Positions 8,286-63,373 of a stretch of DNA of 64,000 nt are shown in pieces (positions within the stretch are counted from its first letter, which is position 1; every line of letters starts with the position of its first letter). The stretch spans positions 28,394,001 to 28,458,000 of the forward strand of contig OX485803.1 in assembly GCA_950295325.1 (NCBI GenBank), in the 5' to 3' direction. The notes under the pieces are model-generated. The model was not told the origin of the DNA. It saw only the letters and a program-made list of their open reading frames with translations, and made no database searches. Both the position numbers and the translations under genes were made by a program. The DNA is from Polytrichum commune. Its lineage: Eukaryota; Streptophyta; Polytrichopsida; Polytrichales; Polytrichaceae.

Positions 8286-8844
8286 GCCTGCAGGCTGCCA
8301 TGTAACTTTGGAGGCTTGAGTGCCTGTCAAATGCGAAATCGTCCTCCCAAGAAAGTTTTTTTTAATTTTTTTTAATTTTTAAGTTTTTTTAACAAAGCTC
8401 TGGCAGGATCGTTTTTTGTAAGATTGTCACATTGAAGGCCATAGGACTTCATGCCCTTCACAATTTAATAATGAGAGGAAATAGTCTCATTCAAGTTGTG
8501 TTGTACTTTGAAGGATGTTAAATAACTGTCAAATGCGGAATTGTCCTTCAAAGGTCTTTTATTTTACAAAGTTATGGCAGTAGAATTTTTCACAAGTTTG
8601 GCGTCACAGTGAAGACCAACGCAAGTCATGCCCTTCCCAATTTTACAATGAGAGGAAATTGTCTCATTCAAGTTGTGTTGTACTTTGAAGGATGTTAAAT
8701 ATCTGTCAAATGCGGAATTGTCCTTCAAAGGTCTTCTCTTTTACAAAGTCATGGCAGTAGAATTTTTCACAAGTTTGGCGTCACAGTGAAGACCAACGCA
8801 AGTCATGCCCTTCCCAATTTTACAATGAGAGGAAATTGTCTCAT
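8286..8844 (+). repeat. ~180-bp satellite-like repeats, left block
   Basis: Three tandem units of about 180 bp share landmarks (ctgtcaaatgcg, gtccttcaaaggtc, tttttcacaagtttggcgtc, atgagaggaaattgtctcat). The last unit is cut after TCAT at 8841-8844, where the giant element begins. The same family resumes in the same orientation at 23346, so the two blocks were once continuous. Confidence 0.85.
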
Positions 8845-8872
8845 AACACTATATTCGTTAAATTGAGACTTT
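8845..8872 (+). repeat. Left terminal inverted repeat of the giant element
   Basis: These 28 bases are identical to the reverse complement of 23318-23345. The next base inward differs (T at 8873 against C implied by 23317), which sets the TIR length. Confidence 0.93.
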
Positions 8873-8984
8873 TTGGGCATTTTGAGACATTCACAAAAAT
8901 AAGAACAAGGATAAATGGAACACATATTGGAGAAAGTTGTAAGATGCGAACACTTTGAAGCAGGTGTTTAGACCAAGAACCCCA

Positions 8985-9262
8985 TATATAACTCATATTT
9001 GTGATGGTTTAGGGTGGGCAACCCAAACCTTAGACCAAATTGAAGGGGAAACCTTAAAACATTCATATTATTGCACACAAAATATTAGAGCTTGTACGAA
9101 TATGGTTTAGGTAGGGCAATCCAAACCATAGATCTTATTGAAGGGTTAATATGTTAACCAATATAATATGGCATACAAAATATTCCAAACTCATATTTGT
9201 GATGGTTTAGGTAGGGCAATCCAAACCTTAGACCATATGGAAGGGGAAATCATGTGACACTT
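8985..9262 (+). repeat. Subterminal tandem repeat of the giant element
   Basis: Three units of roughly 90-100 bp share gatggtttagg, ggcaa(c/t)ccaaacc and gaaggggaaa. Each has a near-palindromic core (ggtttagg...ccaaacc). Subterminal repeats near a TIR are often transposase-binding sites in plant transposons; that role is inference. Confidence 0.6.
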
Positions 9263-9392
9263 ATATTATTGCAAATAGAACATACAAAGTATGGCATGTA
9301 AAATGCATAGCATGCTAACACCTAAACATCCATTGGATAGTGCGACCCAAAATGTTCTTGCCTATGGCCCAAAACCCTACGCCTACTATGGC

Positions 9393-9680
9393 CTATCTAG
9401 CCTCGGAGAGTGCCTCTTTTTCTTTTGCCTCTTTTTCTTTTGCTGCGGCTTCTTTTGCTCGCATTGCTTCAACATTCCTGAAAATCTCCGCCCCGCGACT
9501 ATAGCCATTCTTGGGGTGACAGCCAACAATAACACATTTTGGATTCCGTCGGCCGCCCGAATTATACGACGAAGAATTCGAATACGATGAAGTGGACTGT
9601 CTTGCATTTCCGGTCATGGAGTAGAAACGCTCCAACTCGACGGACACACTAGCCCGCATAGGTTTACGGGTGGGAGCAAC
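9393..9680 (-). CDS. Predicted terminal exon, Lys/Glu/Ala-rich C-terminus
   Basis: An open exon of 96 codons ends in TAG at 9393. A good acceptor (GCGTTGCAG) precedes 9680, and joining in phase 0 to the exon ending at 9815 keeps the frame. The product has a Ser/Tyr-rich stretch (STSSYSNSSSY), a short NPKCVIVGCHPKNGY segment with two cysteines, and a charged, probably helical tail of AKEKEAKEKEA type. No family is recognised. It lies at the left end of the giant element, downstream of the HAD-like exon on the same strand. Confidence 0.5.
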   Translation of the reverse strand, partial: VAPTRKPMRASVSVELERFYSMTGNARQSTSSYSNSSSYNSGGRRNPKCVIVGCHPKNGYSRGAEIFRNVEAMRAKEAAAKEKEAKEKEALSEAR

Positions 9681-9814
9681 CTGCAACGCGTGAATGCAAG
9701 AACACACGTGTTAGTTTAGGGAGGAAGACCCAAACGTGTCACACGTTCATTTTTTTTAAGTGCGGGATGATTGTAATGTGCGGTTAACCATGTTTTGGGG
9801 GGGGGGGGGTTCAC
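9681..9814 (-). other. Predicted 134-bp phase-0 intron
   Basis: Donor GTGAAC at 9814 follows AAG and acceptor GCAG precedes 9680. A run of about 13 C (minus strand) lies just after the donor and is a likely slippage-prone tract. Without splicing the frame continues through this tract to a stop near 9716, so intron retention would give a different short end. Confidence 0.5.
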
Positions 9815-10168
9815 CTTGTCACCGGGGGCGTTCCCGTCGGAGTTGGCGAGGAGGGGCAAGGCGTCCCGCAAAGGAATAGGAAGGGTTCCACTCTTCGTTG
9901 GCCGAGCGTCCATCCGCAGCCGCCGTTGAGGTGTAATATGGCCGCCGGGTCGAGAGGGGGACGTCCGGACGCATTTGCGATTTATGCCCTTGAGCGGCGA
10001 CGGGGACGCAGATCGCCGGAAGATTTGCTTGGGTGGGGGGCTATCGACGACGCCGGCGTCAATAGGCTCCTTGGAGTAGTCAATGGTTGACGCTGCGTCG
10101 TAAACAGTCTCGTAGAAGAAGCTCCCCAAGTTTGACTCGCTCACGATGTCAATCGAGGGCTCCAAACG
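9815..10168 (-). CDS. Predicted exon, unknown protein in giant element
   Basis: An open phase-0 exon of 118 codons lies between an acceptor (GGCTCCAG) before 10168 and the donor at 9814. The product is acidic at first (SIDIVSESNLGSFFYETVYD), then Ser/Pro/Arg-rich (FRRSASPSPLKG, TSPSRPGG). No initiating ATG is seen at its 5' end, so an upstream exon is missing from the model. It could be the 3' part of the HAD-like gene, but the HAD exon already ends in its own stop at 10306, or a separate gene. No known family was recognised. Confidence 0.45.
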
Positions 10169-10269
10169 CTGGAGCCAAAATTAAAACAAAACAAAACCCA
10201 AGGGAGGAGGGTTTGATAGAGCGCGTGAAAATCAAGATACATATGAAGCATATATTACACAAAGTGGGC

Positions 10270-10302
10270 GGGCACACACACACACATACAAACACACATA
10301 GT
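10270..10302. repeat. CA-rich microsatellite
   Basis: A (CA)n-like run with interruptions lies between the HAD-like stop codon and the next downstream exon. Confidence 0.7.
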
Positions 10303-10305
10303 GCC

Positions 10306-11118
10306 TCAAATGAGCTTGTTGAATTTCGTGTGTGAGAACAACTCTCTGTACAAATGGTCTCGTGGATCCAAGTATCTCTCGCCTATCGGATTGTTCCTAA
10401 CAAAATTGTTTACAGGTAGCCCGCTACCCCAGAGCGCCTGGAGGTATTTACTAAGGTCTAACAAAAATCGGTCCCGGACCTTCTCGACCGTCCATGTAGG
10501 GCAAACTATGAGGTTGGCCGTCGGGTTCAACATGTTCTTTGCGGCGTTGTCGTCCACCATGAGCGTGTTCTCGCGGGTGGGGCGGACGTCGTAGGGGACG
10601 CCTATCAAGGACGGACGTTGGTCCCAAAAAATGGGCTTCAAGACCTTGAGATATTGGGGGGAAGCGGGGTTGTTTGGTTTTTTGACGACTTTGCCGTCTG
10701 GTGTGTACAATATTCTACAGGCTTCTTGTGCTAGGACCATGCAGGGGGGCTCGATGCCCTTGAAGATGAACTCCACGACGGCATTGGTGTTCTCGGCCTT
10801 CATGGAGCTCCACACGACCACCCACCATCGTTGTTGGGCGATCTGGAGGAAGGTCCGAAGCCACGGGCGGAGGTGAACTAGTTTGCTCTTTATGAACGTG
10901 GGCGGCCCGTCGTAATTAGCGTCCTCGGGCTTGCAAAAGGGCACCGTGGGGGTCCTAGGGCAATGAACGCATTGGACGAGGACCCCGTTCAGGTCTAACA
11001 CCAGGAATCGTTTCTTCGGCAGCGGGGGCGGGGCGGGTAAAACCGGGGGTGCCGCCGCGCTGCCCTCTCCGCTCCTTGGAGAAGAGCGTCGGGGAGCCGC
11101 TACGCTATGCTCCGAGCC
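10306..11118 (-). CDS. FCP1/NIF-like HAD phosphatase domain exon
   Basis: The open exon has 270 sense codons. An acceptor (TCCGCAG) precedes 11118, and the stop TGA is at 10306-10308. After a Pro/Ala/Ser-rich linker comes KKRFLVLDLNGVLVQ (about residues 35-49), matching HAD motif I of FCP1/SCP phosphatases (DxDxT). The second Asp is Asn and the Thr is Val. VVVWSSM fits motif II, K in the LKPIFW region motif III, and LMVDDNAAK motif IV with both Asp kept. FCP1-family enzymes dephosphorylate protein Ser/Thr, for example the RNA polymerase II CTD. Loss of the second motif-I Asp predicts weak or no activity. Phase 0 at 11118 would allow direct splicing from the exon ending at 11622, making it the C-terminal domain of the ParB/methylase-like protein; it may equally be its own gene with an unseen 5' exon. 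Confidence 0.72.
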   Translation of the reverse strand, partial: GSEHSVAAPRRSSPRSGEGSAAAPPVLPAPPPLPKKRFLVLDLNGVLVQCVHCPRTPTVPFCKPEDANYDGPPTFIKSKLVHLRPWLRTFLQIAQQRWWVVVWSSMKAENTNAVVEFIFKGIEPPCMVLAQEACRILYTPDGKVVKKPNNPASPQYLKVLKPIFWDQRPSLIGVPYDVRPTRENTLMVDDNAAKNMLNPTANLIVCPTWTVEKVRDRFLLDLSKYLQALWGSGLPVNNFVRNNPIGERYLDPRDHLYRELFSHTKFNKLI

Positions 11119-11579
11119 CTGCGGATACGAGCGAGAGAAAACGGGGGCGACTTATGTCATGCTATGTCCAAACGAAGCATTAAGGAAACGAGCGTTCTCG
11201 GTGCAAACACAAAAGCATTTGATTCATTTTGGAGGGGGTGCAACAAGGGATACAAGGGATACAAGAGCATACAAAATACATTCAAACACAATATACAAGT
11301 ATATAGGAGTCAAAAATGGTGATTATATTAAATACAATGCTCTATGTACATCTTGATTGGGGGAGCCACGTTGAACGATGCGTTCAAACTAGCCTACTTC
11401 TACATCTAGAAAAAATTGAAGAGACGGGCCGCCGTGATGAAGACTTCGTCGCAAAGCCGGGGGTAGGTGGACGAACGAATGGTCGCTGGGGGTGACGAAG
11501 GGCGCGAGTGCCGGGGGGGGGCCTAAGTTCGTCCTAGCTAGGGGACACGACCAAGGCAAGAAGTCAAAGACCCAGGAAG

Positions 11580-11599
11580 TTTGGGTCGACCGACCCAAA
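11580..11599. repeat. 20-bp palindrome, single copy
   Basis: TTTGGGTCGACCGACCCAAA lies just 3' of the predicted donor at 11621 in transcript orientation. Its position near an intron 5' end matches the other introns of this tract. Confidence 0.85.
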
Positions 11600-11621
11600 C
11601 TGAGTGGGGTCAGTGCATTAC

Positions 11622-13100
11622 CTCGCCTTGGTCGTGCCTTGACGACGTTGATGCCGGCATCGCGTGCGCTACCCCACCTCTGTCACCGCCGCCTCCGACG
11701 ACGACGTCAGCCGCAACCTGCTCCTGCAAAGGCTGACTGTCAAGCCTTTGTCCCAACCCAACCTTCGCATGCGCATCATGCATTGGTTCATCGACTGGGT
11801 TAGGAGTAGAGGTATCACCAGGCCCTTGCGGGCCTTCAACATCTAGCATAGGCTCGTCGACCGGGGTCTGATCAGGGACGGGGTTTGGGTCGGCCGACCC
11901 AAACCCTGCTGCTTGGCGAGGCTCGCTCTGCGACGCTGCAACGTCGGCACTGTTTGGGTCGGACGACCCAAACATGTGGGGGTCGTCCCGCTGGTGGTGT
12001 GGGGGCAAGAGGATGGGAGGCCGGAGCGGCGGGGGTGCCAACGAGCTGGACGCTCCGGGGACGCGCCAAAGGTTTGGGTCATCCACCTGCTGCACAGGCG
12101 CGTAAGGACGGGCGTGCGGCTGCAGCAAATCCGCGAAGCTGAAGGAATGCTCCAACGCCGGCCGCGGGCGGATATCCTGTGGAGGGAAGCCTGCGGGCAA
12201 GTGAGGGAATGAACTCGGGGGAGCCATCACCAATCCCTGCGCCAGCATGCCCTGGATCACTTGCGTGATGAGCTCCGCTTGGGACGGAGTTTGGGACATC
12301 GCCCTTTGCCGCTCCTGCTCCAACAGGAGAGCCCTCAACTCCGCGACTTCGTTGCGGACCGAGGGTTCCTCGGCGGCAGCCCTCTGCAGTCGCACACGCT
12401 GCTCCTCGTCTCGGAGCATTTTTGCATTCGCCTCCTCCACGGTGAGGACCTCCGGTTTCACCCTCACATTCCCGGCGAACGCTTTGGGGGAGGCAGGATC
12501 AGACCTCAGCTTCTTGGCGAGTTCCATGTCGTCCTCGTCCTCGGAGCTTATTGCGATCGTCTCCTCCACCGCATAGTCCCCGTACAGCTTCTTCCCCTTC
12601 ATCCTTCTACGCTCCCTGAAGGTGGCCGTCGCGTCCCTCGAGTACATATCCTTGGCGTCGTCCACCGTCAACGCGGGCACCAGCCTGCTCTGCGGCGTGG
12701 CAGCCCGCATGGCCTTCTTCCGCTGAGGGGCCTCGGATTCTTGAGTGAATCCTGTTGCCCCTTCCTCCACCTCCCCCTCCACTTTCTCTGCTTCCTCCTC
12801 CGCCTCCTCCTCGTCTTCCTCCCCCTCCTCCCCAACCTCGCCACCTACTCCCATAGACGGATTGCCCGGATGCAACCCGATGAGCGGCTCTGGCAATTGA
12901 ACGGGGGCCCGCATGGCGAATTCACCCGGGTTGATTCGCCTCGCAATATCCAAAGGATTCTCGCCCCCCTCGACGATCTCTTCGACGTAGGATCCGGGTA
13001 TCCAGTCGAGGATGTCCATTCTCTTGGCCAGCGCCTTTTGGGTCCTGTAGAATTGAACATCGGCATCCTCCACATAGGAGTAGATGTTCAACCCAGACAT
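11622..13100 (-). CDS. Long exon: acidic linker and coiled-coil region
   Basis: This exon has 493 codons in phase 0, from an acceptor (TTGTGCAG) before 13100 to a donor GAG/GTAATG at 11622. If the donor is unused the frame stops at 11610. The start (MSGLNIYSYVEDADVQFYRTQKALAKRMDILDW) looks globular. Then come an acidic Glu/Gly tract (GEEGEEDEEEAEEE, about residues 90-115), basic segments, SSEDEDDMELA, and a probable coiled coil (EEANAKMLRDEEQRVRLQRA ... ELRALLLEQERQRA). A long Pro-rich tail carries two FGSxDPN heptapeptides (FGSSDPN, FGSADPN) encoded by the 20-bp palindrome. No catalytic domain is recognised. It links the methylase-like and HAD-like regions. Confidence 0.72.
11884..11903. repeat. 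20-bp palindrome inside an exon (FGSADPN)
   Basis: TTTGGGTCGGCCGACCCAAA, fully palindromic, is read on the minus strand as F-G-S-A-D-P-N in the long exon. Confidence 0.9.
11953..11972. repeat. 20-bp palindrome inside an exon (FGSSDPN)
   Basis: TTTGGGTCGGACGACCCAAA is read on the minus strand as F-G-S-S-D-P-N. It lies 69 bp from its neighbour at 11884, again a multiple of three. Confidence 0.9.
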
Positions 13101-13240
13101 CTGCACAATCAAAATCAATACTATTAGTAACACCAAATGAACAAATAATGGAAAATGACTTCCAAAACAAAATAAGAATAGTTAGTTTGGGTCGTTCGAC
13201 CCAAACCGTTCGTATAGGGACTTCTGGGTTTTCTGCTTAC
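13101..13240 (-). other. 140-bp phase-0 intron containing the palindrome
   Basis: Donor ATG/GTAAGC at 13240 and acceptor TTGTGCAG/ATG at 13101 flank frames that join in phase 0. A palindrome TTTGGGTCGTTCGACCCAAA lies at 13186-13205. Confidence 0.78.
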
Positions 13241-13843
13241 CATGGCTGCAAAAATCGGTTTGGACCCCCCGAAAACGTTGAAGATGCAGTCCCCTCTCTT
13301 CGTGAGGGTCCTCATCATCCGCAGGTAGAACTCCATGCGCAGCTCATCCGCGGGGTAGTTGGCGTACTTCGCCTCGTCATACAAGCTCCTGCTGGTACCC
13401 AACCCTTCTTGGACTTGGAAGAGCTTTTCCATCCTGGCTATGGGATGGTTTGGCACCTTAAGCAGCTCAGCTTTGTACACGAAGTACAAGCACAGCACGT
13501 TGACGATCTTCGTCTTCTTGTCTTTTAGCGTGCTGTACACCCCCTCCGCCGGTGCAGCAACGTAGTGAGATTTCGAGACGGCATACTCCGGCTGCAATTT
13601 GCGCACGATCTCGTAAACCTGCTCTGCCCTTCTGTCCTCGACAATCCAGAGCCAGACGTCGACCTCCCTGAATTTGGGGCTGGCGTAGTCCACGAACTTC
13701 GACAAGAAAGGATCGTAAAAATGGGTGCTCATAGTCCCCTCGAATGAGGCTCCAGGGATGTTCCTGAAGTCTATCATTCCGAAGGGGAAGCGGTCCCCGG
13801 CTCTAGTCCTGATCGCCTTCCTTGACTCAGAACCCGGCCAACC
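13241..13843 (-). CDS. DNA-methyltransferase-like domain, degenerate
   Basis: This is the 3' part of a phase-0 exon (14572-13241) after an in-frame TAG; 201 codons. Near the end, GDCIFNVFGGSKPIFAAM aligns in pattern with the AdoMet-binding motif I of N6/N4 DNA methylases (GDxVxDxFxGSGTT). Upstream, KIVNVLCLYFVYK resembles the strand segment before the target-recognition region of the same family. The key motif-I Asp is Asn and GSGT is GSKP. The catalytic DPPY/W motif that should lie near the start (RFPFGMIDFRNIPGA) is absent. I read it as a methylase fold that has lost catalysis. The order ParB-like then methylase is the order of known bacterial and phage ParB-methylase fusions. The family call rests on pattern, not alignment. 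Confidence 0.55.
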
Positions 13844-14572
13844 CTAGATCCTGAGAGATTCGACAGTGACCATGTTGAATTGCGCATCGCCTTCGAAACT
13901 GACGATCTTCTTCTCCTTTATGAAGTTGGAGAAGGCCCGCACTGAGTGTTCGGGAAGCGCCCGGTTCCTCCCCCCCTTCACGAGCTTGGATCTGAGGAAG
14001 TCGTCTCCCGCCTCCCTCATGAGTGCCGCCATGGACGCACTGGTAAACTTATATTCGGCTTTGAAGGCCCTCCAGTGCGCCTCGTCGACCTCTCCGTCCA
14101 CGATGAGCTTCTTCTCTGGCACAAGCTTGTGCAGCTCCTGGACGATGGTCGTCTTCTTCTTCCTGTTCTCCGTCCATTCCTTCATTGTGTAGCATGAAGG
14201 GACGAAGATCTTGGGTTTGGTGAAGACGATCTTAGGGTGGACCCAGCATCTCTTCGTCGTCGTCTCCACGTGTAGGATGTGGGACGCCGCTTTTCCCATC
14301 TCTGTCTCGGAGAGACCTTGAAGCGCTCTGAAGAACTCCCTCACCAGAGGCTTCATTTGCTTGAAGCGCCCAGTCTGGTTGAAGAGCATGCCGGTGTCGG
14401 GGTCGATGAGGTCACCCGTCTCGTGTTTTTCAAAAACACTCTTCCATCTTGCCCATACGGAATCGGACGTTGTGATCAAATAGATTTCTCCTCTCAGCTC
14501 GTTATACTTTTTCTGCTTGTGGCTAGCATTGTCGATCGAGGAGAATTTATTGATCATTTGATATTTGAAGTC
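13844..14572 (-). CDS. Exon part between ParB-like and methylase-like domains
   Basis: An acceptor (CTGTGCAG) before 14572 opens this phase-0 exon. 242 sense codons run to an in-frame TAG at 13844-13846, after which the same frame stays open to the donor at 13240. The product is Lys-rich and probably mostly helical (HKQKKYNEL, RWKSVFEKHETG, YTMKEWTENRKKKTT) with no recognised domain. The frame identity on both sides of the TAG suggests a nonsense change in what was one exon; a separate short protein is the alternative. Confidence 0.65.
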   Translation of the reverse strand, partial: DFKYQMINKFSSIDNASHKQKKYNELRGEIYLITTSDSVWARWKSVFEKHETGDLIDPDTGMLFNQTGRFKQMKPLVREFFRALQGLSETEMGKAASHILHVETTTKRCWVHPKIVFTKPKIFVPSCYTMKEWTENRKKKTTIVQELHKLVPEKKLIVDGEVDEAHWRAFKAEYKFTSASMAALMREAGDDFLRSKLVKGGRNRALPEHSVRAFSNFIKEKKIVSFEGDAQFNMVTVESLRI

Positions 14573-14892
14573 CTGCACAGGAAGACATTAGCACATGTTA
14601 GACAACACATAATGGAAAAACAAATGCAACAGCAGTTTGGGTCGAACGACCCAAACTATGAACCTGGCGAAAACAACATAACAATTTCAGAGTTTGGGTC
14701 GACCGACCCAAATTATGAACCTGGGGAAAATATCAAAACAATTTCAGAGTTTGGGTCGACCGACCCAAATTATGAAACTGGCGAAGACAACAAAACAATT
14801 TCAGAGTTTGGGTCGACCGACCCAAACTATGAACCTGGCGATGACAACAAAACAATGTAGGAGTTTGGGTCGATCAACCCAAACATACTCAC
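14573..14892 (-). other. 320-bp phase-0 intron filled by a palindrome array
   Basis: The donor GAG/GTGAGT at 14892 is near consensus and the acceptor CTGTGCAG ends at 14573. Both flanking exons are in phase 0 (TGG GAG / GAC TTC). Most of the intron is the five-copy 57-bp array. Confidence 0.82.
14636..14883. repeat. 57-bp-period array of five 20-bp palindromes
   Basis: Copies start at 14636, 14693, 14750, 14807 and 14864, exactly 57 bp apart. Central dinucleotides are AA, AC, AC, AC and AT; the last copy has one arm change (GATCAACC). Spacers share tatgaac(c)tggcgaa...aacaatttcagag. Fifty-seven is 19 codons, so frames stay open through it. Confidence 0.93.
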
Positions 14893-15531
14893 CTCCCATT
14901 TGGGGTTCTTGTCTTTAGCATTCTCCCTTTCCTTGGGAGGCCTTCCATAAAACTCCCACACCTCCCTCGAGGCCATGATGTTTCTGATCCACGATGCCTG
15001 ATAGGCCCTCTTTTTGTTCCCCATGTTGAAGAACCTGGAGATGTCGCTGAGGACCGTCTCGTTGTCCGACCAAACCACCAAAGCCTTCCAAACTTTTAGC
15101 TTCTCCTTCTGGTTGTTCGGGTCGTCCCACTCGGTCATCAGCTGGATTTTTTTCGAGGCCTCGACATTGTGTTGCCCGTCAATCAGCCAGAAGTCTCCTT
15201 TAGAGATTGCCAGCCACATCTCAGGCGTCGGCATTCTTTTCAGCCCTTGTGGCATGACAACAATTGTCTGCCTGTCGTCCTTGAACTGCCCGCCCAAGAT
15301 TTGAGCGACCATCCAGTCGACGTAGGCGTCCTCCTTGGCTCGGACGCACTTCTCTGGTGGCGCAAGGTGGCACTGCGCAATGTTGACCTCGAATTTGAAG
15401 TCCCTGCCCATGAAGAAGCAGTGCAGGCATTTTGTCTCGAAGTTGTTGTTTATTTTTTGTATTTCGCCTGCATCCACCTCTTGGCCAAGCTTCGGCATCC
15501 GGAGCTCCGGGGAAACAGGCTCGTCAGTCAT
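14893..15531 (-). CDS. ParB/DGQHR-like domain exon region
   Basis: The frame holds 213 codons from ATG 15531 to the splice donor at 14892. The core GDFWLIDGQHNVEASKKI (residues 112-129) matches the signature of the ParB/sulfiredoxin-like and DGQHR families (..viDGqHR..A). In bacterial ParB this region belongs to the N-terminal nucleotide-binding/nuclease-like domain. The preceding strand QTIVVMPQG fits the pattern. Arg of DGQHR is Asn. Cys-rich KCLHCFFMGRDF (34-45) lies N-terminal. No helix-turn-helix of chromosomal ParB is evident, so specific DNA binding would need another domain. The region upstream (15541-16305) is in the same frame, separated only by TAG and nine further bases. A bacterial or phage origin followed by intron gain is inference. 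Confidence 0.66.
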
Positions 15532-15540
15532 CCCCGATGA

Positions 15541-16305
15541 CTATCTTCCCCTCTTGGAAGGGGTCGTCTGACGGATTCCTGATGGCGTTGGCGTCTCGCT
15601 GTCAGCCGGCGTTGTTGTAGTGCTCGTCCGTCTCGAGTCTGCAGGGACCGCCCGCGGTTTCCTCACAGTTTGTGGTCTTGAGGACCCTGCGCCTTCTTCC
15701 GTCGTTGCCTTCCGCCTCACAGGCTGCTGCGTCTTGGGTTTGCTTTGCAGCGCCTTGTTGAGAACCGTGATAGCCTGTTTTAACTTCATGAACCTGCTCG
15801 CAACCTTCGTGTTCGTTACACTGCCATCTATGAATATGGCCTCCGGTTTTATGGTTTTAGGGTCGACGCAAGTCTCCTTGGCGTACAGGGGGTCGAAGGG
15901 CTCGGAGAACTGGTGCATGAACATGTGGACGTTCTGCACGGCGGAGTTCTCCAGTATGACATCTACGTAGTCCCCGAGAGACTGGACGGACGCAACCTCC
16001 CATCCCGTCAGCGTTGCCCAGGTGTGCTGCTCGTGGGTCCCCACCTTCACCACGAATAGCAGCTTGAACATGGATGCCTTCACCACCTGAACGGACCATG
16101 TCAGAACGACGCCATCTTTTGGGACGTAAGAATCGTCCTGTGGAGTTTCATACTCCTGCCAAAGGTGGTCTGGCGCGAGCATGAACCACCTTTCACCTGC
16201 GCTTGGCGCGGAGGAAGAGGGGAAGAAAAAGAGAGAAAGAAAAAAGAGGAGGGGAGAGAAGGAGAGAGCGGAAGGGGTCACCCTAAACCCTCGAATCCGG
16301 GCCAT
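15541..16305 (-). CDS. N-terminal region of the ParB/methylase-like gene
   Basis: An open frame of 254 codons ends in TAG, in frame with the ParB-like part that restarts at ATG 15531. The first ATG (16305) lies before a pyrimidine-rich tract that translates as a false signal-peptide-like FFLSLFFF run. The ATG at 16182 (MLAPDHLWQEYE) is a better start, or 16205 or so could be a splice acceptor after the CT tract. The body looks globular (VLTWSVQVVKASMFKLLFVVK, FMHQFSEPFDPLY) and ends in a basic Ser/Thr/Pro tail (TPSKRGR). No family is recognised. It is either the N-terminal domain of the ParB-like protein or a separate short product. Confidence 0.6.
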   Translation of the reverse strand: MARIRGFRVTPSALSFSPLLFFLSLFFFPSSSAPSAGERWFMLAPDHLWQEYETPQDDSYVPKDGVVLTWSVQVVKASMFKLLFVVKVGTHEQHTWATLTGWEVASVQSLGDYVDVILENSAVQNVHMFMHQFSEPFDPLYAKETCVDPKTIKPEAIFIDGSVTNTKVASRFMKLKQAITVLNKALQSKPKTQQPVRRKATTEEGAGSSRPQTVRKPRAVPADSRRTSTTTTPADSETPTPSGIRQTTPSKRGR

Positions 16306-16337
16306 TAGATTGCGCCGGGCCCATCAACGGCTCAGAA

Positions 16338-16420
16338 GCCTCGCGGGCCAACACCTTGCCAGGTGTCGACACCTCCTTGGTTTAGGTGGTTGCCCGCGAG
16401 GCTTGTGGTGTTGACACCTG
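16338..16420. promoter_or_regulatory. Inverted repeats upstream of the minus-strand gene
   Basis: GCCTCGCGGGC (16338-16348) is repeated inverted at 16392-16402. Between them lies the palindrome AGGTGTCGACACCT (16361-16374), and GGTGTTGACACC follows at 16409-16420. The cluster lies just upstream of the first ATG, at the GC-rich edge of the coding tract, where a promoter would be expected. A regulatory role is inference. Confidence 0.5.
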
Positions 16421-16439
16421 CCACCCTAGGGAGATTGCC

Positions 16440-18655
16440 TTCCTAGTTGTCCTTGCCCCTAGGTGCGGGACATAGGAGGGCCGGCGCCTCTCTTGGCCGC
16501 CCGGCCCCGGCCTTCTAACCCGCTATTCATTAGCGGCAATTCAATACCACTCAAAAACCTACGTGGACTAAGGTATTCCACAAAATTAACACCATCACCA
16601 ACTCATATTTTAATGGTGTTCAATTGAATGATCACCCGTTGGAATTGATAACATCGTAGAATGTAGCCATTATCGTTTTGGTGTATGAATAATGTAATTT
16701 ATGGAATCATATGAGAGTGTTACAAAGTCTAAGAGGAGTAAGTCATAATTATATTGCAATCCACAAAGGCAATTACACGGTGCAATAATATAAATATGGT
16801 AACCATTCACATGGTTAACAGTTTAGGATTATGTATTGTAATTTATATGATGGTTGTTGGTAGAGGACAATGCTCTAGTCTATAATGGATACCCTAACAA
16901 GTAGCATTAGAGTGATCATTAATATATGTACTTAGAAGTTCACATTTGAAGTACATGGGAGAAACAAATGATTACAAATGTATCTACTGCAACCCCATGG
17001 AGTTCACATATCATATGAAGTCATTTAAACATTCAGTTTGATGTTTGATGATGCCTGAACCCTAAACCCTAAACCCTAAACCTTAAACAACACAAACCAT
17101 AACTGGATGGCACATAGGTCAAATGACATGGGCCTTGGTGCTTGTAGTTTCCAATACAAATGTATATTGTCATCACAACATCCTAATTCACAAACGTGAA
17201 AGATGGATGTGTGGTTTTTCACGAATGAACGCACTAAAGGAAATAAACGATATTGTGCTCACAAGTAGGTGATACAATATTAACCTATAACCTTGTCACC
17301 TGGTAAGAAGAGCATAAGAACTAGATTATAATGGATAGGATGTTGTTCATGTTAACATGTTATTTGGAATAGTGAAATATTATATATTAATTTAAGGTAG
17401 ATTTCATGTTGTGAATGATATGAGGACATACCTTTTGAACTTTGCATGTTTTGCTCACACACATTGGTAGAGTTCAAGGGACTTCACGATAAGTTCAAAC
17501 ATCCTTGAAAGATTGAACGTGCCAAATGTCATTTGTGGTTTAGGGTTCCATTAATGACTTCCACATAGGTACTAGGTTATTGTCACACTTGGAGCCTTGA
17601 GGATGAAGCAATATTGGGTGCACACATTACAACACAACATATGTTCTTTTAATTAGCGGAAATTGAAAGTTGGCCAAATTATTCAAGTTTGTCATGGCAT
17701 TAATTATTTGTTTTCAAAATATAAGTCCTCATGTGAGAGTCTAAATAATAGCATTAACTATTATATTTAGTGACTTTTAGTATATGAAGTTTTATAATAC
17801 ATGCACATCTTTTGTCAATATATTGTTTGAAATATACCATAATGTTTGACTACAAGTAGAGTAAAACCCCTTAATAGATATAATCTTACATATTGTCATA
17901 GGATTATTGGTATTCAGTGTATGCGTTCATATGTAGTGTATCAAAATCTTTATATCCTTTTTAGTTATATGATAGTTAGTGTTTGATACACTTAAAACGA
18001 ACGCATACACTTCCTATTACTAACCCTATGAGAGTAAGTAACATTAAATGTAAACTCAAACACTAAATATCCACTATGGTGATATATGGAAGTTACATAT
18101 TATAGGGATTTAGTATTAGTAAGGATGTGAGAAAAAAATACAACAATGATAAAAGGAGAAAGGAGATGGCAATAGGGAAGGTGGTGGTGTATTCATGTAT
18201 AAAACTAATTATGAAAGAGTTGAAGAATAGTGTTGACCAAGTTAGGGTGGTAACAACTTTAAATATATGTTGAATTATTCATTTGGTGGTTGGGGCAACG
18301 AAGAGCCAAGCTAAATATACATTCTCTATTATTGACAAGAAGCGGGAAATTGAGTCAGAAGGTTTGAATTAACGTCCAAAGGAGACCAGGTGGGAAAGGC
18401 ATCCAAAGAGGATGCCCAAAGCGGAGGCGGGTAGTATAAAGAGCCCAACCCCCCCAAACGCTGGTTCTTTCTTTCATGTCCCAATCCTGAGATTGCTGCA
18501 AGCTCTCTAAGTTGGAGCTGTAATACACGGTTTGTATACGCTTCCATTCATGAGCAGCTAATTACAACAAGCATCTATGAGTTCAGTTGTCCCAAATAGG
18601 TTATAAATAGATTAATAGAGCATCACCCGAATAAATAGGCGGATTTTGCGGAATT
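16440..18655. other. AT-rich central spacer of the giant element
   Basis: No gene is seen between the divergent coding tracts. It contains a telomere-like run (cctaaaccctaaaccctaaacc, 17059-17080) and a fold-back repeat at about 17887-18036. GC content drops sharply at about 16.55 kb compared with the minus-strand coding tract. Confidence 0.55.
17887..18036. repeat. Fold-back repeat in the giant element
   Basis: agtgtatgcgttc...gtgtatcaaa (about 17928-17957) is repeated inverted as tttgatacac...gaacgcatacact (about 17982-18011), with weaker pairing outward (gtcatagg / ccctatgag). It resembles a small nested MITE; no clear target duplication was found. Confidence 0.5.
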
Positions 18656-18656
18656 G

Positions 18657-19556
18657 TTTGGGTCGGTCGACCCAAACCCAGCCTTACAGTGTGGGTGCTC
18701 TCTGTATTGAGCCAGAACCCATCCTACCTCAAGGTTTGGGTCGATCGACCCAAACCCAGCCCTACAGTGTGGGTGCTCACTGTTGTGAGCCTGAACCCAT
18801 CCTGCCTCATGGTTTGGGTCGATCAACCCAAACCCAGCCCTACAATGTGGGTGCTCACTATTGTGAGCCTGAACCCATCCTGCCTCATGGTTTGGGTCGA
18901 TCGACCCAAACCCAGCCCTACAATGTGGGTGCTCACTATTGTGAGCCTGAACCCATCCTGCCTCATGGTTTGGGTCGGTCGACCCAAACCCAGCCTTACA
19001 GTGTGGGTGCTCTCTGTTGTGAGCCTGAACCCATCCTGCCTCAAGGTTTGGATCGATCGACCCAAACCCAGCCCTACAGTGTGGGTGCTCACTGTTGTGA
19101 GCCTGAACCCATCCTGCCTCATGGTTTGGGTCGATCGACCCAAACCTAGCCCTACAGTGTGGCTGCTCACTGTTGTGAGCCTGAACCCATCCTGCAAAAA
19201 GGTTTGGGTCGCTCGACCCAAACCCAGCCCCTAAGTGTGGATGCTGTCTGTAGTGACCCTAAACCCATCCTGCCAAAAGGTTTGGGTCGCTCGACCCAAA
19301 CCCAGCCTTCTAAGTGTGGGTGCTCCCTGTCGTGACCCTAAACCCATCCTGCCAAAAGGTTTGGGTCGCTCGACCCAAACCCAGCCCCTAAGTGTGGATG
19401 TTGTCTGTAGTGAGCCTGAACCCATCCTGCCAGAAGGTTTGGGTCGCTCGACCCAAACCCAGCGCCTAAGTGTGGGTGCTCTCTGTATTGAGCCTGAACC
19501 CATCCTCCCAAAATGTTTGGGTCGCTTGACCCAAACCCAGCCTCTAAGTGTGGTTG
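18657..19556 (+). repeat. 78-bp-period array of twelve 20-bp palindromes
   Basis: Palindromes start at 18657, 18735, 18813, 18891, 18969, 19047, 19125, 19203, 19281, 19360, 19438 and 19516. The period is 78 bp (one step of 79). Copies 1-7 have GATC/GGTC centres, copies 8-12 mostly GCTC, and spacers split the same way (gcctcatgg versus gccaaaagg), so the array grew from two founder types. Spacers share cccagcc, gtgtgggtgctc and gaacccatcct. Because 78 is 26 codons, several frames are open through the array on both strands; I do not consider them genes. It ends about 190 bp before the start of the plus-strand gene. Confidence 0.94.
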
Positions 19557-19749
19557 GGATCTGGATGCCGGTGTGGCCACTGGCCTTTCGAAACCTTTAC
19601 AAATCCAATGGCATAGCAGTCATATGAACTTGTATGAGCACTGAGTATTTGCAATTTTGTTTATATATGATGGTTTTTTTGTTCTTCGATTTGAACCTAC
19701 AATTTTTGTGATTTTTTGACAATGTTCAATGTTCATGTGTGTAGGCAGA

Positions 19750-21193
19750 ATGGATGGGTTTAGTGAAATAGGGGATTGGTCATCTGATGACATGGCCACT
19801 TGGCCATCTGCATCTGATGATGACCTAGACATTGTCGGGGAGGCTACTATGGCTGACAGTGCGGATGAAGATCATTTGGATTTACCTTCGTCTTCCGTAC
19901 CGCAGTGTCCCATTGTTGAATGTACGGGACTTTCAAGGGCTTCGTGGGTGAATTTGGAGGTGATACTTCTTAACGATAGTGGAGTTGTTGTGGCGGAGGG
20001 GATTTGCCGTAACACCCATCCGCAAGATTGCATTGATGAAAACCCGCTTGGCACCGAGGACGTTGGGGTTGTCATATTGGAGTCGGTCGTTCATTCCGAG
20101 GTGGATCCCACTCATAGGTTCTCCCTCCGCAGGTGGCCATTGAGGAATGTTACAATTGATGGACTTAGCTTGCGTGAACATGAGCAACGACACATGCAAA
20201 TCGAAAATGAGGTGCAATCAAACATGCGGCCGCGCAAAGGTCAAAGAAAGTACGATACATTGGCACGTCCTGCTCCGTCTGCAACTGATTGTAAACGTCA
20301 AAGGTTGCTCGGGGAGGAGTCCATTAGAGAAGTTGCCACAAATGATTGTTATGTGCATCGTTGTTGCCAATTGTTTCCAAGGGATAAATTGAAGGCCATC
20401 CGCGAAGAAATGTGGCTTAGAGATTTCCGTCTAAGATCCACAAGAAAACTTGATGTCCATAGGGCGATACATGTGAATGGGACTGGTCACAAGGTCATCA
20501 CCATTGAAAGCATAGACGTGTGTTGTAAGGCATGGTACACCATTCACGGTGTGTCGAAAGCGGACTTTTATAGACAAGCTGCTTATGCCAAGGAAGGCCG
20601 CCGGTCCCGTCACCATGGTAACGTGGGTTTAAAGAAGCCTAGGGAAGCAACAAGGCAAGCAATGGCCACTCTAGCAACCATCATTGTCCCTCTTGCCGAT
20701 GCAATGCCGCACAAAACACGCACACTCACAACCGGTGAAAAGGTTGTGGAGAAAGTTATTCCCACAGGCACAAAATGGAAAGACATATTGTTGGACGTTA
20801 ATGCAGTTGGCGAGAAGATTGGGTTGGAGCCAATTTCATTGTCAAAATTGAGTGCAATCAAGAAACAAAACTTTAGCGAATACATTACAAAAAGACGAGG
20901 GGACAAATTTGTCAGGTGCTCTAATTGCGAGAAGTTGAAGCGCCTCCGGGATGCACACACGATGGGCACCGAGTCATATGCAGCGCATCAATTGAACTAT
21001 TTTAAGCACGTAAACATGCAAGAGGCACACCGTAATGATTACTACACAAATAGAGCTTTGTCCATCTCCAGGCCCTTGGAGGTTCTTACGGTCATCCATG
21101 ACAAAATGGACCATGCCAAAACAGCCTCCCCATGTTTTGCAAATCGAATCAAGGCCACGGATGGGTTTTTCAAGTTGCCTGTATCGGTTACAG
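19750..21193 (+). CDS. DUF7869-like transposon protein, exon 1
   Basis: ATG at 19750 is the likely start; an in-frame ATG at 19729 precedes a possible acceptor (tgtgtgtag, 19736-19744). The N-terminus is acidic (DDDLDIVGEA, DSADEDHLDL). A basic middle part (NMRPRKGQRKYD, RCCQLFPRDKLKAIREEMW) contains paired cysteines (RCSNCEKLKRLRDA), a possible zinc-binding site. The C-terminal segment (IHDKMDHAKTASPCF, DGFFKLPVSVTG) leads directly into the domain in exon 2. The donor G/GTGAAC at 21194 is in phase 1. From memory of the family this is the layout of DUF7869-type proteins, which occur in many copies in plants. As the only transposase-like gene in the element it is the best candidate for the mobilising enzyme. 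Confidence 0.75.
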
Positions 21194-21327
21194 GTGAACT
21201 TCGAAACAATGTCATAACATACCCTAAATGTTGTGGTTTTTTATTCCGTGATGTACTGGAGAACATAGATTCCTTCATAATGGTTTATTCATACATAGAT
21301 GCTAATCACGTTGGGTTGGCATTGCAG
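21194..21327 (+). other. 134-bp phase-1 intron of the DUF7869-like gene
   Basis: GTGAAC donor and GGCATTGCAG acceptor remove 134 bp. Splicing rebuilds a Gly codon (G + GA) and joins PVSVTG to MIAHGHGD, the expected uninterrupted family text. Without splicing the frame stops at 21331-21333. Confidence 0.85.
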
Positions 21328-22814
21328 GAATGATTGCACATGGACACGGTGATGTCAAATTTGCTCATTATGCTCTTGATTTGTATCCAGCGGATTCAAA
21401 CCACACGATAGGATCATTTGCAAGGCTTTTATGTGATTTAGAGAAACCACCAGCCTATTCTTCAGGATTGTTATTTGAGAACACGGGTTCAACACCTTTA
21501 TATGAAGCGGTGTTGGATGGAAAAGATGTATGCTTGCATTCGTTGCCCGAGCCACCCAATAAACCCGTGATTGCCAAGAAGTTGCCTCCAACTTTGCGTG
21601 TCCAATTGGACAATTGTGCCAAGGACAATAAAAGCAGATATGTATTTGCATATTGGTCGTTGTTGGTTGCGAAAGGCATTTTCAAGGAGGTTTTTGTGTC
21701 CTTCTTATTGGTAGGCCACACGCACGATGATATTGATGCATCTTTTGGGCGGTGGAGCATGAAGTTGCGGGAGGAGGATTTTTCTACAATCCCATTATTG
21801 ATGAAGTCGTACATAGATTTGGAGAACGTTCCCGTCATCCCCCATATGATTGAGGAGGTGTCAGACTTCAAGGCATTTATAGAACCTTATATTCGAAGTG
21901 GAGCTCACCGATTGATCGGGCATACGAAGGCACAACAATTCCGCTTCTATATGCGTGACGATGGTGTCCCGGCCATGCAATACAAGTTGTTGTGCACGTC
22001 ACAAGACTGGAGCCCGCCGGAGGGTCTTCTTGTGTGGCGCGTGGATGCGGATGGAAAGACCATGTTACCGGATGGGGAGCCTAGGCCTTGCAAGCCAATA
22101 GCCATGAAGAATTTGGAGGATATTTTGAAAGGTATATCACGCTTCATACAATATTGGGAGAGTTTGAAAATAGCGGATGTTGGCGGATCATGTTGGCATC
22201 GTTATGGGAGTTGGATACATTATTGGACACGTGTTCGTGCCGCCTTGGCAGACCTCCACCAAGATAGCCCTCATACTTTGAGGCATGGATTTTGGCCACA
22301 AACACGAGTCGATGTACAAGCTTTGGAGCCTAGTCTTTTAGGAAATGGAGAGGTTCGAGAGGAGTTTGATGTGGACGACCATTACGTGGGGCCTGCTAGT
22401 AGTCGTCCCCCACCATCTTTCCGCATTGCAGTGGATTGTCATGAAGGTTATATGCTCATTTTGCGTCCTGGAGACGAGACATATGCGAAGCCAGTGTAGG
22501 TGGCAAGAGCTTTGTCCAATCCCAATTTTGTAACTTCCAGCCCTCATTTTCGACAAATACAAGTGGAGTACTATCGACCGACAGCAAGGAATGAAGATGT
22601 GATTCGGCATTATACAGGCTGGGATACAAACCCTAACTTTCGGTGGAAGGTGGATTCTGAGCACGGTCCATCTTGGGTAGATACAGATTCCATATTCATA
22701 GCATGGAAACCACGGAAACACCATAGTGGATCAGTGTCCATCCCTCAAAAGTACATAACTTTTGCAAAAGACAACCTTGCTCGGATTGCACAAGAAGCAA
22801 CCCACGTTGAATGA
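21328..22814 (+). CDS. DUF7869-like transposon protein, exon 2, with in-frame TAG
   Basis: This exon encodes the conserved domain. Counting from Met at 21330, VQLDNCAKDNKSRYVF (91-106) and LLVGHTHDDIDASFGRWS (127-144) are the strongest family marks; their acidic residues are candidates for a nuclease-like active site, which is inference. EVSDFKAFIEPYI, GHTKAQQFRFY and MQYKLLCTSQDW follow. TAG at 22497-22499 interrupts the frame between YAKPV and VARALSNPN, after which 104 more codons continue (YYRPTARNEDVIRHYTGWD, FRWKVD, WVDTD) to a stop at 22812-22814. The family usually has a Trp or similar residue there, so TGG to TAG is the simplest explanation. As it stands the copy makes a truncated protein unless read through. 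Confidence 0.75.
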
Positions 22815-23317
22815 GAAGTTGGTAGGATTGTGTTAGCATGATTATAGTTTAATACGTAATTATAGCAATATAAATTACACATATGTGTGCTCTTCAAAAT
22901 TGGGGCAGAGTTTGGGTAGAACTTACGAATACTATATTGTTTGGAGTTGGATGAATATCCATTTACTATATTTCAAAAAAAATTGAAGTTCATCTTATTA
23001 TTATGTTTGGGACTATATTCTCGAATGAAGAAATATGCATTTATTACATGCACTTTGTATGTTGCAATGTCTATATTCTATTGAGCATGCTAATAATAGA
23101 AATCATTTTATATATATTTTTGGGTGAAACTTGTTTGGAGTGCTCTACCCAATGTGTTTTTGTTGATGAAGTTGGTGTCGAGTGCTCTACCATATGTGCT
23201 TATGTCCGCACATCATAGATTTGGGATATTAGAACATATAATATAATTGAGATTGTTGACAATATAGTTTCGGGCCTCTTCAAGTTCTTTGATCCATATA
23301 TTAATTTGAAACTAGAG
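22815..23317. other. Right subterminal region of the giant element
   Basis: No gene is seen. A duplicated phrase (gag tgctctacc..atgtg, 23137-23195) and AT-rich DNA lead to the right TIR. The tandem repeats of the left subterminal region are not obvious here. Confidence 0.5.
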
Positions 23318-23345
23318 AAAGTCTCAATTTAACGAATATAGTGTT
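23318..23345 (-). repeat. Right terminal inverted repeat of the giant element
   Basis: Exact inverse of 8845-8872, followed directly by TCAT and the resumed satellite unit (tcaagccatgttgtactttgaagg). Confidence 0.93.
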
Positions 23346-23870
23346 TCATTCAAGCCATGTTGTACTTTGAAGGCTTCAATGTCTGTCAAATGCAAAATTG
23401 TCCTTCAAAGGTCTTCTCTTTTACAAAGTTATGGCAATAGAATTTTTCACAAGTCTAGCGTCATAGTGAAGACCAAAGCAAGGCCCAATTTTACAATGAG
23501 AGGAAATTGTCACATTCTAGCCATGTTGTACTTTGAAGGCTTCAATGTCTATCAAATGCAAAGTTGTCCTTCAAAGGTCTTCTCTTTTACAAAGTTATGA
23601 CAATAGAATTTTTCACAAGTCTAGCGTCACAGTGAAGGCCAACGCAAGTCATGCCCTTCCCAATTCTATAATGAAAGGAAAATATCTTATTAAAGCCGTG
23701 TTATTACTTTGAGGGCTTCAATGCCTATCAAATGCAAATTGTCCTTCAAAGGTCTCTTTTTATAACATATGTTATTTAGGTTTCCCACAAGAGTGTCATT
23801 GTAGTGAAGTCTAACAGAATTCGTGACCTTCACAACTTTACAATGAGAGGAATTGTCGCAAACAAGCAGA
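23346..23870 (+). repeat. ~180-bp satellite-like repeats, right block
   Basis: About three diverged units in the same orientation as 8286-8844 share gtccttcaaaggtct, tttttcacaagtctagcgtc and atgagagga. The first unit completes the one cut at 8844. Confidence 0.82.
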
Positions 23871-33724: not shown

Positions 33725-34133
33725 CACGGGGGGTGCACTTCATTGTCAAGTTGAACACCACGTGCGATAAAACAAAATCTACTTTTTACATAAAGCATCA
33801 CCAAAATGGTTCAAAAGTTTATGATTTTTTTTCATGAGTAGATATACATGGTATCTATTACATAGTAAAAATTTGTAACCAAATTTGATGATTTGTTTTT
33901 TTAATAAAACATACCGTTTCTAACTAGAATGACGCAACATTGAACTAAAATAATTACTACAAAAAATGAAGATGACTAAAAATTTCAAAAAAATATACAA
34001 AAGATATTACCAATGGTTATGTGTATGTAGAAAAAATATCATAATTTAAAAAATGATCTATGGCATGTAATATAGGGTAGCAAACTTTTATCGCACGTGG
34101 CTATGAAATGTAAGGGGCTGTGACCCCCCCGTG
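33725..34133. mobile_element. CACGGGGGG element copy 1, 8-bp TSD
   Basis: 409 bp, beginning CACGGGGGGTGCACTTC and ending GTGACCCCCCCGTG, with an inner inverted motif ccacgtgcgataaaa. The 8-bp duplication CTCTCTAC is at 33717-33724 and 34134-34141. An inverted second copy lies at 62537-62946. Confidence 0.9.
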
Positions 34134-62459: not shown

Positions 62460-63373
62460 AAAAATAATCTATTGGTATGCTATTTTAATAATTTTTTGCT
62501 TTTGAGATTTGAAGTGTACATTAAGGCTCATCATCCCACGGGGGGATCACACCCCCTTACATTTCATAACCACGTGCAATAAAAGTTTGCTACCCTATAT
62601 TACATGCCATAGATAATTTTTAAAATTATGATATTTTTTCTACATACACATAACCATTGATAATATCTTTTGTATATTTTTTTGAAATTTTTAGTCATCT
62701 TCATTTTTTGTAGTAATTTGTTTAGTTCAATGTTGCGTCATTCTAGTTAGAAACGGTATGTTTTATTAAAAAAAAAAATCATCAAATTTGGTTACCAATT
62801 TTTACTATGTAATAGATACTATGTATATCTACTCATGAAAAAAAAATCATAAACTTTTGAACCATTTTGGTGATGCTTTATGTAAAAAGTAGATTTTGTT
62901 TTATCGCACGTGGTGTTCAACTTGACAATGAAGTGCACCCCCCGTGCATCATCCAACTCTTGAATACATATGATTTCATCCATGTTGTTTGGTTTGCAAA
63001 CCACCACATATGATATGTTGGCAAACCACGTTACAAAGCATCATGGGCGTAGAGATTTGTAAATTATCATAGGTTTCAACTTGTTAGTGCATGTCATATT
63101 TATAGCAAGGGCAAGATTGAGATGGTCCTTTTAAATTTTGCGTCCATGAACTTTTCCTTGCAGTAGTGTCTTGTTTTGTTGGGCAAGTTAAATCAAACCA
63201 ATCTCATCCATGTTGTAAACATCTTCCGGGTGCCATAACCAATGCGGAGGAGGACAATGCTTACCAAATCGTGTGTAGATGTGGTCATCAACACCCAAAT
63301 TATCAAAATAATAACCGAAATGAAAAGCATCCGACACCTCTAGAGCCAAGAAATTGATGAGTGGCATGGGCAA
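62460..63373 (-). pseudogene. Decayed pogo/Tigger-like (DDE_1) transposase
   Basis: The minus strand reads WHPEDVYNMDEIGLI (63188-63235), then QNKTLLQGKVHGRKI, KDHLNLALAI and NKLKPMIIYKSLRP, the conserved block of pogo-like transposases around the first catalytic Asp (NMDETGL). Stops break it repeatedly. After the MITE at 62537-62946 the text resumes as SLNVHFKSQKQK (about 62480-62525), the next expected family segment, so the MITE landed in this gene. Confidence 0.72.
62537..62946. mobile_element. CACGGGGGG element copy 2, 8-bp TSD
   Basis: 410 bp, inverted relative to 33725-34133 and closely similar. The duplication CATCATCC is at 62529-62536 and 62947-62954. It interrupts a pogo-like pseudogene. 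Confidence 0.9.

Follow-up and report, generated by a model that had tools for sequence, protein, structure and literature searches.

A 22-bp palindrome repeated through two transposon families of Polytrichum commune: a candidate operator for self-recognition

Results

A palindrome repeated through a giant DNA transposon

The window analysed here, the whole 64-kb stretch (40.7% GC) between positions 28,394,001 and 28,458,000 of contig OX485803.1 in the Polytrichum commune assembly GCA_950295325.1, holds an entire DNA transposon, hereafter family A. The element carries a rightward gene with a DUF7869 exon, probably the transposase, and, on the opposite strand, an accessory gene made up of the stretches E1 to E5; spread over it is the palindrome TTTGGGTCG-NN-CGACCCAAA. 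A sequence-only reading of the window had reported 21 copies of this 20-bp word at 11580..19535, placed in arrays, introns and exons. A motif search allowing up to three mismatches bears out both statements: of 22 matches in total, 17 are exact and four have one mismatch (the 20-mers starting at 14864, 18813, 19047 and 19516), while the 22nd is a three-mismatch relative at 9332. Two tandem arrays hold 12 and five of the 21 good copies, a further intron holds one, an exon two, and one lies past a stop codon. The sites, and the accessory gene stretches to which several of them belong, are the following (ORF, open reading frame; UTR, untranslated region).

18656..19553, plus strand: tandem array of 78-bp units containing 12 palindromes, located upstream of the DUF7869 gene
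15541..16323, minus strand: accessory gene stretch E1, one exon with E2, split here by an in-frame TAG
14827..15540, minus strand: accessory gene stretch E2, carrying FWLIDGQH; the ORF continues into the intron
14634..14884, minus strand: 57-bp tandem array with five palindromes, in the intron after E2
13844..14587, minus strand: accessory gene stretch E3, one exon with E4, split here by an in-frame TAG
13124..13843, minus strand: accessory gene stretch E4
13185..13206, minus strand: palindrome in the intron after E4
11610..13181, minus strand: accessory gene exon E5, with two palindromes inside
11952..11973, minus strand: palindrome inside E5, read as FGS-S-DPN
11883..11904, minus strand: palindrome inside E5, read as FGS-A-DPN; its distance from the E5 palindrome above is 69 bp
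11579..11600, minus strand: palindrome about 10 bp past the E5 stop codon, in the probable 3' UTR

The 78-bp array lies between a TATAAA (at about 18435, with another at about 18602) and the transposase ATG, and the 57-bp array has its first palindrome starting 9 bp downstream of the inferred splice donor. Since a flanking G..C pair is present in 116 of 124 exact copies (those of the window and of the further loci that we fetched), we take the full unit to be the 22-bp GTTTGGGTCG-NN-CGACCCAAAC. Scored as a 22-mer, the window has 15 sites without a mismatch, six with one and none with two or three; five more, all inside the element, have four or five mismatches (9007, 9105, 9205, 9714 and 9331), and three have six (15115, 23133 and 40181), of which only 40181 lies outside the element.

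Rigid spacing, a restricted centre and conserved arms

The spacing of the arms is rigid: in the 214 kb made up by the window and the fetched loci they stand 2 bp apart 124 times and never at 0, 1 or 3–12 bp, and in the whole genome (407.8 Mb in 64 contigs) arms separated by 3–8 bp occur at two places. Genome-wide there are 9,731 exact 22-bp palindromes and no copy of the reversed control; with a maximum of 0 palindromes in 100 dinucleotide shuffles of the window, this rules out a chance repeat. The sequence-only reading had described nearly invariant arms around a variable centre. The former is correct; the centre does vary, but it is not free, as TA is found in none of the 9,731 copies and only 669 (about 7%) start with a base other than A and also end with one other than T, a class that would make up about 56% if the centre were free. 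The same restriction is seen in the 124 copies, 117 of which have A first or T second: folded on the two strands, their centres are AC (49), AG (25), AA (23), AT (20), GC (3), GA (2) and CC (2), with no CA/TG, CG or TA, although CA/TG does occur elsewhere in the genome.

Within the 78-bp array the arms, including the flanking G and C, are about nine times less variable than the spacers (nucleotide diversity 0.018 and 0.156, respectively; 0.345 for the centre; permutation p 0.001). CpG sites are expected to decay fastest if methylated; 22 of the 24 CpGs of this array lie within palindromes, and the spacers hold 131 TG/CA dinucleotides.

We then aligned the accessory gene of the window copy with that of the family A copy g605 and of the g1175/g2110 subfamily, which is 69–70% identical to the window. 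The four copies give 11 site columns, six of which have a site in all four. In five of these six common columns the arms are identical in the four copies, and in the sixth there is one arm change each in the window and g1175; none of the six has the same centre in both subfamilies. For the sites in the exon and 3' UTR, the window agrees with g605 in the centre and differs from the other subfamily. In exon E5 both comparisons find all 12 codons of the motif unchanged, while the codon over the palindrome centre has changed its amino acid; among codons for conserved residues outside the motif, 199 of 341 and 202 of 346 (58%) are identical. Because copying or conversion would carry the centres along, and yet the centres differ while the arms stay intact, it is selection, rather than copying, that maintains the arms.

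Palindrome copies inside elements of two families

The sequence-only reading held the palindrome to be confined to the giant element, and proposed a genome-wide search in which a dispersed repeat independent of the element would speak against a dedicated site. All 21 window copies do lie inside the element, but a second transposon family, family B, carries the same word elsewhere in the genome. We read the surroundings of the first 100 of the 9,731 copies, all on contig C1 between 0.44 and 2.16 Mb: every one lies inside an element, 81 in family A (g605, g1175 and g2110) and 19 in family B, which supports a dedicated site tied to mobile elements.

A second list comprised 50 copies with rarer centres, spread to 45 Mb on C1 and by design enriched for the exon pair. 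Thirty-four of them lie inside pairs of exact starts of the family A terminal inverted repeat (TIR), and eight more have a correctly oriented TIR no further than 20 kb away; the two kinds of zone make up 1.1% and 0.8% of that C1 sequence (together about 2%). Conversely, 18 of the 24 TIR pairs contain a copy from this list, and the six pairs that do not include two short deletion copies. The remaining eight copies of the list comprise one (2159675) in family B, three (3445630–3445790) that adjoin a family B marker, and four assigned to neither family, two of which are spaced 69 bp apart like the exon pair of family A. A search of viral contigs for the exact palindrome found none.

Family B has ends that differ from those of family A and its own palindrome arrays, in which the spacing is mostly 32 bp; in tandem amplification the word has been built into units of 78, about 64, 57 and 32 bp. 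Each family has a large array some 160–420 bp downstream of a TATAAA. When the ORFs of the two families were compared by BLAST, the best 40 matches were all translations of the palindrome. Between the family B ends we found no DUF7869 match, and models of MULE transposases gave no match in this family. Its opposite-strand gene has a SWIM-like stretch (PF04434, E=0.076; 13 bits, below the cut-off of 19.6). The family B accessory gene (L022:5265-8731, L013:4511-7718) combines a DGNHR motif with a methyltransferase-like C-terminal part, which matches PF01555 below the cut-off in the g455 copy (L013; E=0.021) and gives no such match in the g2145 copy. Members of family B are also found nested: in g455 an insertion splits a palindrome array, and array exchange through such nesting and recombination could be another route to a word common to A and B.

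Family B loci also carry a second perfect palindrome, ACCCTGTGCGTTAACGCACAGGGT, with 411 exact copies genome-wide (control 0); its arrays often have near 64-bp spacing (L011:7500-7660, L013 at about 3068, L022 at about 5025).

Ends, genes and copies of the family A element

The remaining features of the element, with its target-site duplication (TSD), are listed below.

8845..23345: whole DNA transposon of family A, 14,501 bp, with TIRs and a 4-bp TSD, inserted in a host tandem repeat
8841..8844, plus strand: left TSD, TCAT
8845..8872, plus strand: left TIR, 28 bp, perfect, starting AACACTATATTCG
9008..9225, plus strand: three degenerate subterminal variants of the palindrome (TTTAGG..GGGCAA.CCAAA) in a 98-bp tandem repeat
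9332..9351, plus strand: degenerate variant ATTGGATAGTGCGACCCAAA
9393-9710 and 9716-10180, minus strand: two further ORFs, probably exons
9715..9734, plus strand: degenerate variant TTTAGGGAGGAAGACCCAAA, missing from the short copy L026
10306..11151, minus strand: NIF/FCP-like phosphatase ORF (PF03031, E=3.9e-15), 74.7–99.3% identical in three other copies
19729..21333, plus strand: first large exon of the probable transposase, its main pieces 77–97% identical in three other copies
21306..22499, plus strand: DUF7869 exon of the probable transposase (PF25273, E=6.3e-43), ending at an in-frame TAG
22500..22814, plus strand: downstream end of the transposase frame, past the in-frame stop
23134..23153, plus strand: degenerate variant TTTGGAGTGCTCTACCCAAT near the right end, at element position 14290
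23318..23345, minus strand: right TIR, 28 bp, perfect
23346..23349, plus strand: right TSD, TCAT

A 28-bp TIR and a 4-bp TSD mark the element as a TIR DNA transposon. Its target was a host tandem repeat of 166–177 bp, found on both sides (8409-8844 and 23346-23852). All five family A copies with both ends read (the window copy, g605, g2110, L026 and L027) have a 4-bp TSD, the other four being AAGT, ATAA, ATGT and CACT. The TIR start (24 bases, up to two mismatches) occurs in the genome 609 times on the plus and 613 times on the minus strand (control 0), so that family A likely has several hundred copies.

The PF25273 match scores 147 bits over a cut-off of 26, and a diverged copy scores 142.9 bits. 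The DUF7869 exon has 105 scored matches in the genome, 11 of which contain a stop inside the matched stretch; sixteen share one score just under the window's own, at 98% identity, and 14 of these are open over 502 residues. Such equal-scoring copies suggest recent amplification. The window copy itself has three in-frame stops, all TAG (22497-22499 in the transposase, 15541-15543 and 13844-13846 in the accessory gene); the corresponding positions of the three other long copies are free of stops. The phosphatase ORF is possibly a captured gene.

Within the element, the exact palindromes of the window keep a distance of at least 2.7 kb from its left end and of at least about 3.9 kb from its right end. 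The degenerate variants are subterminal: those on the left are retained in all five other copies read (two or three of the 98-bp-repeat variants in each), and the one on the right is also present in g1175, g2110, L026 and L027 and, with two changes, in g605.

Elsewhere in the element are five telomere-type CCCTAAA units (TTTAGGG-type repeat; 17054-17088). The window also has an AP2-domain ORF and an inverted repeat of about 410 bp (33725-34133 and 62537-62946), its arms 96–100% complementary and 28.4 kb apart; the sequence flanking the first arm (33.3–34.7 kb) has relatives near other palindrome loci.

The accessory protein and its relatives

Depending on the frame, the palindrome is read as WVxRPK, FGSxDPN or LGRxTQ. 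Such peptides occur in seven of 162 listed database relatives, which may include proteins of the same species: in six they follow the end of E2 (KWEV...) by no more than about 25 residues, and in one they come just before the gene start. Several other relatives have near versions past the E2 end, and P0128, P0130 and P0135 read past the exon end without the peptide. A search by the array translation returned two further proteins with different spacers between the palindrome peptides.

The accessory proteins of families A and B have the motifs FWLIDGQH and FIWDGNHR, respectively, with D-G-(Q/N)-H in each, which we take to be reminiscent of ParB/DGQHR proteins; searches did not confirm homology. 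None of the accessory gene stretches matches a Pfam family above cut-off, and we found no methyltransferase match in family A. In the search for a ParB-like domain, one of 32 members matches DUF6551 at E=0.05. Pfam, NCBIfam and PDB sequences and profile comparison did not show ParB homology of the accessory protein.

Discussion

A proposed operator for a dimeric protein

We propose, with a probability of roughly 85%, that the palindrome is a selected 22-bp operator, which a dimeric protein of two-fold symmetry would bind as double-stranded DNA. A DNA-binding dimer would be the natural reader because of the rigid spacing, the two-fold symmetry, the strand symmetry of the centre rule and the indifference to surrounding sequence. 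The sequence-only reading had likewise suggested selection on the arms as a protein-binding site, and the constrained arms, the 12 invariant exon codons and the fixed spacing support this. More tentatively, at somewhat less than even odds, we suggest by analogy that the reader is encoded by the element and serves self-recognition, acting on expression or against silencing. The dimer would bind GTTTGGGTCG-NN-CGACCCAAAC, the opposite-strand accessory gene of the transposon being the first candidate to encode it; through the leader arrays, introns, exon and 3' UTR it would coat the copies of the element and mark them as self, and the marking would switch on the element's genes or avoid silencing, as VANC proteins do for VANDAL transposons. 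We favour self-recognition and anti-silencing because the sites are spread over the element and re-amplified in tandem, resembling VANC targets; protein binding, the identity of the reader and the anti-silencing effect are what we infer from the observed features of the palindrome.

Several results weigh against this interpretation. The short family A copies L026 and L027 (3.6 and 4.8 kb) have no exact palindrome while retaining both ends, their TSDs and the degenerate subterminal sites, and transposition therefore seems not to require the exact sites in cis, unless the deletions post-date insertion. Some sites lie in an exon, unlike VANC21 sites. No reader protein shared by A and B was found among the best 40 ORF matches; the one lead is the D-G-(Q/N)-H motif of their accessory proteins, for which profile comparison (hhalign, A1 vs A3) gave a probability of 0.5%, which is not significant; and searches with the accessory protein returned nothing above cut-off in Pfam, NCBIfam and PDB, including no ParB match in PDB. 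As for the conservation of the arms, 15 of 50 mismatches in the 165 sites with up to two mismatches fall at CpG positions, 13 of them CpG transitions; five of the 11 site columns, all array units or intron sites, lack a site in one or more copies; two of the six common columns are array units, for which the pairing in the alignment is uncertain; and the exon p value of about 0.0016 assumes that codons are independent.

Alternative explanations

The serious rival to an element-encoded reader is a host protein: the palindrome would be recognised by a transcription factor or chromatin protein of the host, which two transposon families exploit so as to be expressed in suitable cells or chromatin. 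A common host reader is the simplest account of two families that share the palindrome but no other protein among the best 40 ORF matches, and the position of the large arrays after a TATAAA in both families speaks for it too. Host genes, however, would be expected to keep such sites, and all 100 copies read at the start of C1 are in elements, while the sites in exon, introns and 3' UTR would be superfluous for promoter use; we regard a host reader as plausible and rank it next after an element-encoded one. Selection could instead act on RNA, with the transcribed palindrome folding as a hairpin to which a protein binds or which influences processing. This would suit the fact that most exact copies are in the leader, introns, exon or 3' UTR, all probably transcribed, but the centre rule is symmetric between the strands, with coding-strand intron centres of AT, GT, TT, AA, AG and AC, the arms at common sites hardly vary and so provide no compensating pairs in favour of a stem, and two bases make a poor loop in RNA, all of which makes the hairpin improbable.

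Recognition of the ends by the transposase, as in CACTA/Spm elements, would be consistent with the degenerate variants near the left end of four long and two short copies and near the right end as well. The exact sites, in contrast, are deep inside the element, and family B, where no DUF7869 match was found between the ends, uses the same exact word. The deletion copies L026 and L027 led us to reject end recognition by the exact sites, and a role of the palindromes as transposase-binding sites has little to recommend it. Finally, the sequence-only reading had also considered a mobile or copied unit. Although near-identical copies are many and tandem amplification clearly occurred, conversion of a 20–22-bp unit would have spread the centres, and those of the exon and 3' UTR are specific to the subfamily; single copies have no flanking duplications, common sites hold the same positions in diverged subfamilies, and there are deletion copies without the motif. 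With site-specific centres between intact arms and no target duplications, we rejected a mobile 22-bp unit, and spread by mobility or gene conversion is a very remote prospect.

Implications

To return to the operator that we favour, a more far-reaching version is that unrelated families A and B converged on, or exchanged, an operator read by transposon-encoded ParB/DGQHR-like proteins. This would amount to a eukaryotic, parS-like code of self-recognition, present even in a coding exon, by which the elements mark their own DNA, perhaps with spreading or with demethylation or methylation at the two CpGs of each site, and so escape silencing; we consider it unlikely. Few self-recognition motifs of transposons are known to us, and this palindrome is unusually clean: it is long, rigidly spaced, present in thousands of copies, kept in a coding exon and common to two seemingly unrelated families. 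We found nothing in print on the palindrome or on DUF7869 in searches of the open-licence literature: none of the listed titles retrieved with the first arm concerned transposons, and the second arm led to one paper, on mycoplasma methyltransferases. The 22-mer is a ready binding probe for the reader, which makes discrimination between self and host by selfish DNA testable. If two families use one code, one may parasitise the regulator of the other, or both may exploit one host factor, and either outcome would, to our knowledge, be new.

Comparison with known systems

The ParB-parS systems of bacterial plasmids and chromosomes use clustered palindromic sites that are read by a dimer. The clustered palindromic sites described here are similar, but they belong to a eukaryotic transposon, and ParB homology was not found. 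In CACTA (En/Spm) transposons, TNPA is an element-encoded DNA-binding protein with repeated, subterminal sites; the termini start CACTA, the TSD has 3 bp and the transposase is of the CACTA family. The palindromes resemble TNPA sites in being repeated, and their weak variants are subterminal; the exact sites, by contrast, are internal, the TIR starts AACACTA, the TSD has 4 bp and the gene is DUF7869. We rejected membership of CACTA on the grounds of the termini, the TSD and the transposase frame, in which only DUF7869 is above the Pfam cut-off. A 4-bp TSD is characteristic of the Sola superfamily, which family A fits in TSD length, the only feature compared.

A giant transposon of algae, Sola1-1_Ec32, encodes an accessory protein with ParB-like and DNA-methyltransferase parts opposite its transposase, and passages of its description suggest that such accessory proteins may act on the transposon that encodes them by binding and modifying it (PMC12477816). 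Family A is likewise a large DNA transposon with an opposite-strand accessory gene, and family B has DGNHR and methyltransferase-like motifs. The passages on Sola1-1_Ec32 (PMC12477816) name no binding site, unlike the present case, in which the ParB-like homology is in turn not established.

The closest parallel to the proposed self-recognition is with the VANDAL transposons of Arabidopsis, where, according to sections of two reports, expression of the binding protein VANC leads to loss of methylation over the element, and the VANC motifs are of 8–9 bases (YAGTATTAY; AGTTGTCC/AC) and lie in tandem repeats in non-coding regions (PMC5735166, PMC10398659). As with the VANC targets of these sections, a short motif is repeated in the family, in tandem repeats that differ between relatives, and the element has a transposase and accessory genes (PMC5735166, PMC10398659). 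Like a VANC-type motif, the palindrome is repeated in the element with tandem units that differ between related families; the VANC domains DUF1985 and DUF287 were not found among the accessory stretches, none of which has a Pfam family above cut-off. What sets the palindrome apart from the VANC motifs, as those sections present them, is that it is a rigid 22-bp word with two CpGs, that it is found in an exon and a 3' UTR as well, and that two families have it in common.

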